This document shows positions 27,669-32,865 of a DNA stretch of 40,232 nucleotides, in pieces. The first letter of the stretch is position 1, and every line of letters starts with the position of its first letter. Made by a program: the position numbers and the translations under genes. This stretch comes from a virus. The notes under the pieces were generated by a model, which was given only the letters and a program-made list of their open reading frames with translations, was not told the origin of the DNA and did not search any database. The stretch lies in IMG/VR virus record IMGVR_UViG_3300044729_001318, positions 1 to 40,232 of that record; one strand, 5' to 3'.

Positions 27669-27905
27669 ATGAATTCGATCCGAGGGCGTGAACAGCCCGC
27701 TTATGACATTGTGACCATGCTTGGCGGCGTCACCAAGGCCGCTGAAATCTGCGGAACCTATCCGTCCACGGTGTCCCGGTGGCTGCATACCACAAGTAAA
27801 AAGGGAACCGGCGGAAAGATTCCGCTTAAGTATTGGCAGCCGATCCTAGATCACGCTGCAAAATATGGAAAGAAGATCACGCTTGAAACGCTCTATAAGG
27901 GTTGA
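27669..27905 (+). CDS. Small HTH regulator (Cro-like)
   Basis: This 78-residue protein has a helix-turn-helix at about residues 11-40 (IVTMLGGVTKAAEICGTYPS, then TVSRWLH), followed by a basic stretch and a helix. Size and layout match Cro-type repressors. ATG 27669 has AGAAGGAG 6-13 bases upstream; an earlier in-frame start at 27582 would run through the promoter. It sits between divergent promoters with a common motif, so it likely regulates both, and possibly the other leftward promoters too. The last base pairs overlap the next gene's upstream region. Confidence 0.8.
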   Translation: MNSIRGREQPAYDIVTMLGGVTKAAEICGTYPSTVSRWLHTTSKKGTGGKIPLKYWQPILDHAAKYGKKITLETLYKG

Positions 27906-27907
27906 CC

Positions 27908-29800
27908 GTGCAGAACAGCGAATTCCTCGCTCATGTGTATGGCGACCTGGGCCAAGCGTTCGGGTGGACAACTTCATTCCGCGCTGACCCCAATGCCGCC
28001 GATCCTACTATGTGGGAAGGCAAGGCTTGGCGGGCGACGGACGCACAGAAGCGCCTGATTGACGCCCGCGAGGCGGACAACAATTTCTATTGTGTCGCCG
28101 CTATGGCTGGCCGCGAGATCAAGCGGCGCAAGGCTCACTTTGAGCGCCTCTGCGTGCTTGTAGCGGACGACGCTACGTTGGACGGCCTTGCCGCGCATCC
28201 GACCTACATCATCGAAACGTCGCCGGGGAAATACCAGATTGGTTGCATCATTGATGCGACAGACCCGGACGCACGAAACGCCGCGCTGATTGATAAGGTC
28301 ATGCAGGTCATGGCCTCCGAGGGGCTCGTGGGCGCGGATGCGTCGGGCAACAACCTGATTCGGTATGTCAGGCTCCCCCAAGGCGCGAACACGAAGAAGC
28401 GGCCTAGCGGCGCGTTCTCTGCCCGGCTGCTGCAATTCGACGCGGAGCGGGTCTATAGCCTTGAGGACGCCTGTATGGTGTTCGGCATTGACCTTGACCG
28501 CCTGCGCTCGGAAACCGTGGTCCCGCTACGGCGCGAACTGAAGCCGCGCACCAATGCGGCGCAACTGATTGAGGCCCTGGTTACGCCAGACCTGAGCGAG
28601 CGAAGCTATCATGACCCGCTGCTGAAGCTTACGGCCAAGCTGGCGAGCGAGGGTGTAAAGCCTGACACGACAGTTGAGGTCGTCACGGGGATTATGCAGG
28701 CAGGCAGGCCCGCTGATGGTCCTGAATTGCGCCGCTGGGAAGCCCGCGTCCAAGAAATCCCGCGTCTGGTTAAGGGTGCGGTCGAGAAGTTCGCCCCTGA
28801 GCCCGTCAAGCCATTTGAGCCTAGCGGGCTGATCCGCACGGCCAATGACGTTGGCAGGGAATTTGAGGATATCGACTGGATCGTTGATGAACTGATCCCC
28901 GAACAAGCGGTCGGCATGATCTTTGGTGCCAGTGGCACGTTCAAATCCTTCATCGCCATTGACCTGTGCTGCCATATCGCCAACGGGATGGAATTCATCG
29001 CCAAGGAGACGCGCAAGGCTCCGGTCCTGTATCTCGCGTCCGAAGGTGGCGCGGGTATCTATCGGCGTATCCAGGCGTGGCACAAGCACCACGGCTTGCC
29101 GATCTCCGATGATGTCTGGCTTGTCACGACGCCCCTAATCCTGACCGTCAAGGAGCAGCTAGAAGCCCTGATTACGGCTATGGAGGCCATGACGGTCAAG
29201 CCCGCTTTCGTGGTTATTGACACGCTTTCGCAGACGTTCGCCGGGGACGAAAATTCGTCCAACGACATCGCGTCCTATATCCGCGCGATCAACACGGACA
29301 TTCGCGCGCGGTTTGGGTGTTCGGTGGCGGTCATCCACCACACCGGCCACAATGCGTCAGACAGGCCGCGAGGGTCGTCCGCGATGATGGCGAACCTGGA
29401 TTACCTGCTAGGCGTATTCAAGCCCGATCCAGAAGCCAGCACGGCGCGTATGATGGTTGTGAAGCAGAAGGACGGGGACCGTCTGGACGACATGTATTTC
29501 ACGATGGAACGCGAGGATTTGGGCGTCACCAAAAAGGGCAAGCCTGCCTCGTCGCTTGTGTCCGTCTATAACGATGCGCTACGAGCGGCGGGTGGCAAGA
29601 CGAGCAAATACGATCTCGTCATCATGAACCTGCTTGAGAGCGGCAAGATCGTCTCCGAGGAAGAGATGAGGAACGCGATCAAGGATGAGGCTGGGTGCAG
29701 CGCGGACACCGCCCGTCAGGGGGTCAGGCGTTCCCTCATCAAGCTGGTCAACAGCGGCTATGTCCGTCGCGCTGGTTCGGACGCCTGGAAAAAGGCGTGA
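27908..29800 (+). CDS. Fused RepB-type primase and RepA-like (AAA_25) helicase
   Basis: This 630-residue protein starts the phage's DNA replication. GTG 27908 has AAGGG 6 bases upstream; TTG 27902 overlaps the HTH stop but has no spacing. Residues about 80-165 resemble a RepB-type archaeo-eukaryotic primase: VLVADD (metal-binding Asp pair at 87-88), SPGKYQ (105-110) and RLPQGANTK (155-163). Residues about 325-510 are a RepA-like hexameric helicase, with Walker A GASGTFKS (340-347), Walker B VVIDTLS (435-441) and VAVIHHTGH. The C-terminal 90 residues look like a winged helix. No DNA polymerase is found in the window, so host polymerase is probably recruited. Confidence 0.85.
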   Translation: MQNSEFLAHVYGDLGQAFGWTTSFRADPNAADPTMWEGKAWRATDAQKRLIDAREADNNFYCVAAMAGREIKRRKAHFERLCVLVADDATLDGLAAHPTYIIETSPGKYQIGCIIDATDPDARNAALIDKVMQVMASEGLVGADASGNNLIRYVRLPQGANTKKRPSGAFSARLLQFDAERVYSLEDACMVFGIDLDRLRSETVVPLRRELKPRTNAAQLIEALVTPDLSERSYHDPLLKLTAKLASEGVKPDTTVEVVTGIMQAGRPADGPELRRWEARVQEIPRLVKGAVEKFAPEPVKPFEPSGLIRTANDVGREFEDIDWIVDELIPEQAVGMIFGASGTFKSFIAIDLCCHIANGMEFIAKETRKAPVLYLASEGGAGIYRRIQAWHKHHGLPISDDVWLVTTPLILTVKEQLEALITAMEAMTVKPAFVVIDTLSQTFAGDENSSNDIASYIRAINTDIRARFGCSVAVIHHTGHNASDRPRGSSAMMANLDYLLGVFKPDPEASTARMMVVKQKDGDRLDDMYFTMEREDLGVTKKGKPASSLVSVYNDALRAAGGKTSKYDLVIMNLLESGKIVSEEEMRNAIKDEAGCSADTARQGVRRSLIKLVNSGYVRRAGSDAWKKA

Positions 29801-30448: not shown

Positions 30449-30605
30449 GCTGCTTCTTGAATCCCAGTCGATACATTCGCCCCAGGACCGCGCTACGGGA
30501 CTTGCCCAATTCAAGCGCGATCAGGCGGGCAGTATAGCCGTCGCGCCACATGGCATAAAGCGTGGCGTCCTCCTCTTTAGTCCATTCAACCGGACGCCCG
30601 GCCAT
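30441..30605 (-). CDS. 54-residue GcrA-like helix-turn-helix protein
   Basis: It starts in a TAATG overlap with the methyltransferase stop. The sequence VEWTKEEDATLYAMWRDGYT followed by ARLIALELGKSRSAVLGRMY and RLGF matches the N-terminal DNA-binding domain of GcrA (W-T-x-E plus AxxLG-x-S/T-R-x-A-V-I/L-G-R-x-x-R-L-G). It lacks the cysteine/histidine C-terminal domain present in the full-length protein encoded at 33244-33774. A bare DNA-binding domain could compete with host or phage GcrA for sites. Confidence 0.8.
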   Translation of the reverse strand: MAGRPVEWTKEEDATLYAMWRDGYTARLIALELGKSRSAVLGRMYRLGFKKQHV

Positions 30606-30622
30606 TAGCCAAACTCCGTTTG
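30605..30622. repeat. Direct repeat A flanking the methyltransferase gene
   Basis: TTAGCCAAACTCCGTTTG is repeated as TCAGCCAAACTCCGGTTG at 31354-31371 (16 of 18 identical). On the coding strand both copies encode the end of a protein in the form Q-x-E-F-G-stop. The repeats lie at the 3' end of the methyltransferase gene and at the end of the preceding gene. Confidence 0.75.
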
Positions 30623-31339
30623 TTTAGTCGTTGATTCCCATTTCATGATTAGTTTTCCGATTTCTTTTGCGATCTGCGGGACGACGGCATTTCGGATGGT
30701 GTCAAATCGGTCCACCCGATTGGTAGTCCCATTATCCACTCCTCGAAACTCGGCAATCTTAGCTTGCCAAGGGGCGTTCCACGGAAAGGATTGCTGCTGC
30801 CGCCCCATTCGTCCAATCTTCCAGCAACGTGGTTCCTGCCGTGATTTGATGTCCCCGATGGGGTAGGCAATAATCCAAGTCCGCGCACGTTGGTGCGGGG
30901 CTCCGAAATCGCAAGCTCGGAGACGATACCATTCCGCATCATACCCGAAGCCGGCAAGCCCTTGGAGGACCGTTCCCAGGCCTCTAGTTCGCAGGGCTCC
31001 TGAATTTTCGATGATGACATATTTGGGCCTTATTTCGCCAATCAAGCGTAGATATTCAAACCAAAGGGAACTTTCAGTCCCAAGCAAACCGGCACCCTTG
31101 CCTGCCGGGGAAATATCCTGGCATGGAAACCCGCCGCAAATTACGTCAATTTCAGATTTGATGTCTGATGCTTTAAGCGTCTTGATGTCTGCATGACACG
31201 TTACGCCTGGCCAATGCTTTTTAAGCACTTGCCTAGGCCATTCCTCAATCTCGCAAAAAGCTACAGTTTCAAATCCTCCAGCTTGCTCAAGTCCTAGATC
31301 AAGAGCGCCAATACCGGAAAACAGCGAAAGAACCTTCAT
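30605..31339 (-). CDS. C5 cytosine DNA methyltransferase
   Basis: This 244-residue enzyme transfers a methyl group from SAM to cytosine in DNA. ATG 31339 has GAGGAGCC upstream; an open frame further upstream would run through the preceding gene. Motif I is LFSGIGALDLG (residues 6-16), motif IV GGFPCQ with catalytic Cys73, motif VI ENS (111-113, usually ENV), motif VIII QRARTW (150-155) and motif X NAVVPQ (217-222, preceded by IR where LG is usual). It is shorter than typical members (300-400) with a small target recognition region. Its C-terminal half is also read as methylase-like sequence in another frame. No restriction gene is near. Confidence 0.85.
   Translation of the reverse strand: MKVLSLFSGIGALDLGLEQAGGFETVAFCEIEEWPRQVLKKHWPGVTCHADIKTLKASDIKSEIDVICGGFPCQDISPAGKGAGLLGTESSLWFEYLRLIGEIRPKYVIIENSGALRTRGLGTVLQGLAGFGYDAEWYRLRACDFGAPHQRARTWIIAYPIGDIKSRQEPRCWKIGRMGRQQQSFPWNAPWQAKIAEFRGVDNGTTNRVDRFDTIRNAVVPQIAKEIGKLIMKWESTTKQTEFG
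30649..31020 (-). other. Alternative reading frame with methylase-like C-terminal sequence
   Basis: A 123-codon open frame lies wholly inside the methyltransferase gene. It contains LPASGMMRNGIVSEL, LGLLPTPSG and EEWIMGLPIGWTDL, followed by PSEMPSSRRSQ. I remember these as signatures of the C-terminal region of another group of phage DNA cytosine methylases. There is no ribosome binding site of note. It may be a product of overprinting or of an old frameshift within this gene family; translation is not shown. Confidence 0.45.
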
Positions 31340-31888: not shown

Positions 31889-32053
31889 TTAAGAAATGAT
31901 GGCCCAAGCCAGGATGGCAAGGAACGCACCGACAGCCGCCACGCCTAGCCCGAACGCCAGAGCGTCGGAGCAGTAGCCGTCAGCGGGATGCGGCGGGCTC
32001 GACGGGACGCGCAGGGCGTCGATGATGTGGAGGATGAGCCAGCTAGGGTTCAC
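31889..32053 (-). CDS. Small membrane protein, 54 residues
   Basis: GTG 32053 is supported by AAGGAGG 6 bases upstream and by an 11-base overlap with the preceding gene. The first 30 residues are polar with Pro/Ser; residues about 34-53 form a membrane segment (ALAFGLGVAAVGAFLAILAW). An earlier in-frame start would be inside the preceding gene. Orientation and role are unknown. Confidence 0.65.
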   Translation of the reverse strand: MNPSWLILHIIDALRVPSSPPHPADGYCSDALAFGLGVAAVGAFLAILAWAIIS

Positions 32054-32351
32054 GGCTGGCCTCCTTTGCGATGGTGGCGGGGTCGAGCAGGCGGATGGCG
32101 TCGTCAAAGTTGGCGGGCATGACAGCCCAATTGACGGCCTCCCGCGCAGCAGCCTCCAGCCCTAGCCGGATGCCCTCTAGGCGGGCGGCGTTGATCAGGT
32201 GTTGGTTGAGGACGAGGAAGTGTTTTACGTTGGGCCAATCGGCGTCGCTGGCTTCGCTTGGGTAATTGCTGTTGAAGGAGCCCGAGACATACACCCACAC
32301 ATCATCCGCGACCGGCTGGGGTCCGCCGTCGTGTTGTTTCCAGTCAGTCAT
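32043..32351 (-). CDS. 102-residue protein with duplicated C-terminal module
   Basis: The N-terminal half begins MTDWKQHDGGPQPVADDVWV, a layout common in small phage proteins (WxxHDGGPxPV). From about residue 49 to the end (NQHLINAARLEGIRLGLEAA onwards, with WAVMPANFDDAIR) it is nearly identical to the C-terminus of the protein encoded immediately upstream (32344-32865). The shared module is helical. Its function is unknown. Confidence 0.7.
   Translation of the reverse strand: MTDWKQHDGGPQPVADDVWVYVSGSFNSNYPSEASDADWPNVKHFLVLNQHLINAARLEGIRLGLEAAAREAVNWAVMPANFDDAIRLLDPATIAKEASREP
32061..32209. repeat. Direct repeat copy 1, C-terminal module
   Basis: This stretch matches 32359-32507 (offset 298). 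Bases 32091-32209 and 32389-32507 are identical over 119 bases; the first 30 bases differ at a few positions. It encodes the shared C-terminal module of the two neighbouring genes. Confidence 0.9.
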
Positions 32352-32865
32352 GGTCAGCCTTCTTTGCGATGGTGGCGGGGTCTAGGGCGCGGATGGCGTC
32401 GTCAAAGTTGGCGGGCATGACAGCCCAATTGACGGCCTCCCGCGCAGCAGCCTCCAGCCCTAGCCGGATGCCCTCTAGGCGGGCGGCGTTGATCAGGTGT
32501 TGGTTGATGATGGGGCTGTTGTGCAGCGCGATTTGCTTCCGCAAAGCCTCCTCCAGCGCCTTGATCCTCTCGTAGGCGTCAAGAAGTTGCTCGCCATGAT
32601 CGTTCGCCCGCTGTTGAGCGGCCCCGGCGATATGCTCCAGCGCCTTGACCGTCTCAGCGGATGCGGCCTGTCCGGCGCGGTAGCCCTCCAGCCAATTTCG
32701 ACGGCCTTCTGCTTCCTGCTCAAGCTGCGAGTCATATCCCCCGGATCGCGCAAGAGCGACATGGGCGGCTACGGTTTCCGGCGGCAAGCCTTTGGCAATG
32801 AGGCTTTCCCAAAATTGCACGCTTTGTTCCCTCGCCCACAGCAAAGCCTCGTCGGGTTCACTCAC
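32344..32865 (-). CDS. 173-residue helical protein with duplicated C-terminal module
   Basis: The start GTG 32865 overlaps the preceding stop as GTGA and has AAGGAGG upstream. Residues 1-115 are mostly helical with Glu/Ala/Gln (SLIAKGLPPETVAAHVALAR and EAEGRRNWLEGYRAG). The end from about residue 120 is the same module as in the following gene. The N-terminal parts of the two proteins are unrelated, so the module has been shuffled onto different partners. Function unknown. Confidence 0.7.
   Translation of the reverse strand: MSEPDEALLWAREQSVQFWESLIAKGLPPETVAAHVALARSGGYDSQLEQEAEGRRNWLEGYRAGQAASAETVKALEHIAGAAQQRANDHGEQLLDAYERIKALEEALRKQIALHNSPIINQHLINAARLEGIRLGLEAAAREAVNWAVMPANFDDAIRALDPATIAKKADHD
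32359..32507. repeat. Direct repeat copy 2, C-terminal module
   Basis: The second copy of the 32061-32209 repeat; 119 bases are identical. Because so few synonymous changes have accumulated, the duplication or a conversion event must be recent. Confidence 0.9.

Follow-up and report, generated by a model that had tools for sequence, protein, structure and literature searches.

What does it mean when a single stretch of phage DNA reads as methylase-like protein in two frames of the same strand: is the second frame an accident, another protein, an alternative end of the first protein or a further part of the same enzyme? This question was addressed at a locus in a 40,232-nt stretch of the IMG/VR virus record IMGVR_UViG_3300044729_001318 (positions 1 to 40,232 of that record, all of which we call the window) and in relatives of that locus from phages and bacterial genomes.

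A methylase gene with a second open frame

The initial annotation had reported intact C5-cytosine methyltransferase (C5-MTase) motifs in the main frame and methylase-like text in a second, overlapping one, and both descriptions hold. The main frame, here called alpha (frame 0), is 244 aa long, contains GGFPCQ, ENS, QRART and RNAVVPQ, and matches Pfam PF00145 (E=1e-44) and PHROG 363 (E=2e-74) in profile searches. The second frame, here called beta, is a 123-aa open frame in the +1 phase, correctly placed at 31020-30649 (−), and contains LPASGMMRNGIVSEL, GLLPTPSG, EEWIMGLPIGWTDL and PSSRRSQ. The locus has the following features (window coordinates):

30605..31339 (−): alpha, C5-cytosine methyltransferase large-domain subunit with motifs I-VIII and X (PF00145, PHROG 363 and HhaI/HaeIII sequence matches)
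30861..31339 (−): alpha motifs I-VIII, with the catalytic PCQ near 31122, ENS and QRART; codons from about 107 onwards are dual-coding with beta
31021..31034 (−): possible ribosome-binding site TAAGG, 7-8 nt before the beta ATG, proposed from the sequence
30649..31020 (−): beta, +1-frame ORF of 123 aa with an ATG start, carrying a putative target-recognition region and motif IX (PHROG 1008, tblastn, identity higher than in the alpha frame)
30740..30880 (−): putative target-recognition region, LLPTPSG..GRLDEWGGSSNPFRGT in beta, with the alpha frame as spacer (close-pair substitutions and synonymous/nonsynonymous counts in relatives)
30703..30750 (−): motif IX-like segment FEEWIMGLPIGWT in the beta frame (+1 frame in about 90% of alpha-ascertained relatives)
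30660..30695 (−): motif X, RNAVVPQ, in the alpha frame (alpha alignment; selection is back on the alpha frame here)

The large domain of C5-MTases comprises motifs I-VIII and X; the small one holds the recognition region and motif IX. Alpha holds motifs I, IV (PCQ), VI (EN) and VIII (QxRxR) in the correct order, and its residues 1-171 match the large domain of M.HhaI and M.HaeIII (sequence search, E about 1e-15); these enzymes share that domain with alpha but, unlike the window, are single chains with all motifs in one frame. The IX-like text of the window lies in beta and its motif X in alpha, rather than both in one chain as in single-chain PF00145 C5-MTases, and on its sequence alpha is a split member of the C5-cytosine methyltransferases, of predicted activity and unlike their standard form.

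For the second frame, the initial annotation had staked its case on a profile match and on constraint across relatives, and both were found. Beta matches PHROG 1008, ‘DNA methyltransferase’ (profile search, E=2e-12), and tblastn with beta returned phage loci (lowest E 5e-23) whose records and positions coincide with those of the alpha matches; the constraint, seen as stop depletion and beta-wobble substitutions, is described below. Recognition-region-like text in window beta reads LLPTPSGTSNHGRNHVAGRLDEWGGSSNPFRGT and precedes the IX-like segment listed above. Database searches with beta gave no Pfam, NCBIfam or PDB sequence match, and a PDB profile search gave none either. An AF2 model of window beta alone (86-row alignment) was of low confidence (pLDDT 61) and had no PDB fold match, and a model of the natural alpha-beta fusion L209 (alignment A7) gave a C5-MTase large domain with HaeIII and HhaI as best matches, in which only the large domain, and not the recognition region, was resolved.

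PHROG 363 and PHROG 1008, matched by alpha and beta respectively, both bear the label DNA methyltransferase but are kept as separate families, whereas the beta proteins tested lie in the +1 frame of genes that match 363. The initial annotation had likewise taken the second frame for the text of another group of phage methylases. That view is not supported: in bacterial genomes (mostly MAGs, probable prophages, many phyla), beta overlaps alpha in the +1 phase at 71 of 77 loci, so that the database beta family is largely the other frame of alpha genes.

Several neighbouring features were noted. A gene for a 54-aa GcrA-like protein (window 30605-30441 (−); PF07750, E=2e-8) has an ATG that overlaps the alpha stop, which suggests a small methylation-linked regulator adjoining the methylase and an alphaproteobacterial host. 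A primase/helicase-like gene (RepB_primase and AAA_25) occupies window 27902-29800 (+), and a 168-bp direct repeat (window 32050-32217 and 32348-32515; 93% identical, 298 bp apart) has its copies in two small genes with near-identical C-termini.

Conservation and selection in the two frames

An open second frame is by itself weak evidence here, because the window is GC-rich, long chance ORFs are frequent in it and the openness of beta has P = 0.04 under synonymous shuffling of the window gene. Comparison with relatives is more telling. Over the same DNA columns, +1-frame identity exceeded main-frame identity in every listed relative whose beta identity was 50% or more (64 vs 32% for L001; 69 vs 41% for L038), the +2 frame was usually the lowest, and differences between window and relatives at beta codon positions 1/2/3 numbered 1495/1692/2467, that is, mostly beta wobble; most of the loci used in these identity and wobble comparisons had been retrieved through the beta frame. 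Pseudomonas phage phPA-G and three Vibrio phages have a +1 frame that stays open across almost the entire alpha gene.

Beta patterns had been used to gather the first relatives (L007-L086), which might carry an ascertainment bias; tests were therefore repeated on 240 further loci (L088-L327) obtained with alpha N-terminal queries only, which represent the W (window-like), P (MNELALFAG) and K (MTAYYNE) types of methylase. Loci ascertained by the main-frame N-terminus alone also show +1-frame conservation. Over all three types, 13 beta-frame stops were seen against about 684 expected, with no depletion in the +2 frame; relative to synonymous shuffles, the +1 stops were 12 against about 298 in the W type (PCQ to motif IX), 0 against about 301 in the P type (counted from the gene start) and 1 against about 85 in the K type. 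Of roughly 225 loci scored, about 90% had their motif IX text (NPxWVEWLMGFPxGWTDL or LNPAHSRWLMGLPPEWD) in the +1 frame; motif X, where the pattern recognised it (in most loci of types W and P and in about half of type K), lay just downstream in frame 0. Conservation of beta and its depletion of stops rule out a chance ORF, and the original observation of methylase text in the second frame was right, the match being far beyond chance.

Selection switches between the frames along the gene. Codon-position entropy has its normal order in the N-terminal part, where position 3 is the most variable; further along, position 3 falls, the motif IX block peaks at position 1, which is beta wobble, and the normal order is restored at motif X. 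Close pairs of W-type loci, which are few and phylogenetically non-independent, showed differences at alpha positions 1/2/3 that numbered 20/16/118 over the N-terminal part, 44/7/6 over the recognition region (beta wobble) and 11/4/32 from motif X to the end. Synonymous/nonsynonymous counts in the W-type recognition region were 63/199 in alpha and 152/110 in beta, and from motif X onwards 125/19 in alpha and 19/125 in beta; the pattern was concordant in the W, P and K types. These entropy, close-pair and synonymous/nonsynonymous patterns argue for beta as the main reading frame of the recognition region and motif IX, for alpha as that of motifs I-VI and X, and for dual coding over VI-VIII; beta appears to encode the recognition region, and the alpha text there to serve as spacer.

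Start of beta and competing readings

Start codons for beta are under selection in relatives. In the P type, a beta ATG lies 4 nt after the alpha start (ATGAATG) and is present in 77 of 80 genes; AAT encodes the Asn at alpha codon 2 in 75 of 75 genes, compared with 300 of 759 Asn codons elsewhere (40%), and it is this AAT that creates the beta ATG. In the K type, an internal ATG often follows an AGGAG-like (SD-like) stretch encoded by the Arg-Ser of RSIEDV, the Arg being AGG in 23 of 77, compared with an overall share of about 6%. The W-type beta start varies, no single ATG being conserved across relatives, and many family members have a beta that reaches further 5′ than that of the window. 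The natural start of window beta would be ATG 31020, behind the possible ribosome-binding site TAAGG and a beta-frame stop, a TAA that sits at the position of TAAGG directly upstream. Both beta starts and beta constraint lie upstream of motif VIII, whereas a gene expressed by frameshifting would be coding only from the shift site; internal initiation is therefore favoured over programmed frameshifting and is probably, judging from these patterns, how beta is made.

A programmed +1 frameshift after motif VIII would yield an alternative C-terminus (motifs I-VIII followed by the beta recognition region and IX), and hence two isoforms. It would account for the rare natural loci in which the alpha N-terminus is joined in frame to the beta C-terminus (L037, L173, L209 and L240), although these lack motif X, some have the join at G-runs, and they may be indels or errors; it would also suit phage Peaches and L394, in which alpha ends soon after motif VIII and the remainder is in beta. 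We nevertheless consider it improbable, because a tail made by frameshifting has no need of the constraint that beta shows before motif VIII, because P-type beta is open from its ATG near the alpha start, with codon 2 fixed so as to preserve that ATG, and because the joined product would be without motif X. The upstream constraint, together with the selected internal starts in relatives, points instead to a separate subunit. The initial annotation had proposed that the second family arose from this one by frameshift (overprinting) or else that the phage can make both C-termini; what survives is overlapping coding with methylase text in both frames (PHROG 363 and 1008, constraint in both), whereas alternative ends are improbable, motif IX (+1) and motif X (frame 0) being complementary parts of one enzyme.

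It is very improbable that beta is an independent overprinted protein of other function, such as a regulator or an anti-restriction protein, and no methylase subunit. The missing Pfam and fold matches would fit such a protein, but beta carries a motif IX-like segment that is absent from alpha, at the expected place before motif X; the betas of Peaches and Firecracker also hold motif X; and beta is almost never found without an overlapping alpha. We give virtually no credence to the reading that the main frame alone codes and that codon usage, constraint at the DNA level or a recent swap of recognition cassettes gives rise to the +1 similarity. The abundance of long chance ORFs in the window and the marginal P value of beta are in keeping with it; the stop depletion, however, is specific to the +1 frame, substitutions fall at beta wobble positions, beta identity is above alpha identity in the same columns, and AAT is invariant at P-type codon 2.

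A probable split enzyme in two overlapping frames

On these comparisons, we consider it very probable that the locus encodes a single split C5-MTase whose two subunits are read from overlapping frames of the same strand. Alpha would provide the catalytic, SAM-binding large domain, comprising motifs I-VIII, the spacer and motif X, and beta, begun at internal ATG 31020 and overlapping motifs VI-VIII, would provide the small domain with target recognition and motif IX. The two chains probably associate into an active, sequence-specific enzyme that would mark, and may thereby protect, phage DNA. The DNA order of motifs I-VIII, recognition region, IX and X is the same as in an ordinary methylase, and the simplest origin would be compensating indels in a normal gene that shifted its middle domain into the +1 frame; this domain would then have been retained as a separately translated chain, with its 5′ extension overprinted on motifs VI-VIII.

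The small chain of M.EcoHK31I is reportedly coded in an alternative frame inside the large-chain gene, and the window, with its small chain in a +1 overlapping frame, would resemble it in this. According to PMC3404938, M.EcoHK31I (YGGCCR; Lee, Kam and Shaw 1995) is a two-polypeptide C5-MTase with motifs I-VIII and X on the large and IX on the small chain, and by that described motif layout alpha (I-VIII and X) and beta (IX) are divided alike. The same source places the predicted recognition domain in the large subunit of M.EcoHK31I and not in the small one, whereas here selection places it in the +1 small chain; moreover, M.EcoHK31I is one restriction-modification enzyme, whereas the present loci form a large phage/prophage family with several layouts. 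M.AquI (CYCGRG), also described there as a naturally split C5-MTase, has part of the variable region on its large chain and the rest with IX-X on its small chain, a split that Peaches, Firecracker and L394 resemble (alpha with I-VIII; beta with recognition region, IX and X) and from which the window differs by having motif X in alpha.

Layouts vary among the relatives. The annotation of mycobacteriophages Peaches (gp77/gp76) and Firecracker (gp6/gp5) has a pair of overlapping DNA methylases, one in frame 0 and one in +1, and in both phages, as in L394, motifs IX and X lie in beta. Motifs IX and X lie in frame 0 in L150, ShiLan gp70 (L329), Darolandstone gp38 and L331; in L329, L150 and L331, beta-like text persists in the +1 frame, and these three are possible intermediates or re-fused forms. 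G-run tracts occur at the alpha/beta join or shift point in L209, L225 and L037, as phase variation or sequencing indels. We lean, by a little, towards a broader view in which these loci belong to a large and so far mostly overlooked class of C5-methylases, of phages and prophages, that carry their two structural domains as separate overlapping-frame proteins. In this view, compensating indels shifted the ancestral middle domain into another frame, where it was kept, and the family became a frame mosaic whose motifs IX and X change frame and in which single-chain forms arise anew.

Annotation tends to hold one frame or the other: the six GenBank phage records checked divide into three with alpha only and three with beta only, the annotated gene of L001 is alpha, and in sister Vibrio phages either alpha or beta is annotated, never both. 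An open-access literature search of incomplete coverage found no description of overlapping phage methylases, and an earlier report is possible. To our knowledge, long same-strand overlaps with demonstrable selection on both frames are rarely documented in tailed phages; here the natural replicates number many hundreds, the frames clearly share out the work between them and biochemistry supplies a precedent, and the overlap is a tractable case of a gene splitting into two overlapping genes. The annotation pattern suggests that many phage methylases are annotated with half the enzyme missing. Prediction of methylation specificity is affected, as the recognition domain would be taken from the wrong frame, and so is cloning, as recoding alpha would destroy beta. 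If the class is indeed a frame mosaic, the alpha text of the recognition region would be a by-product, and separate recognition chains might let these enzymes exchange specificity.
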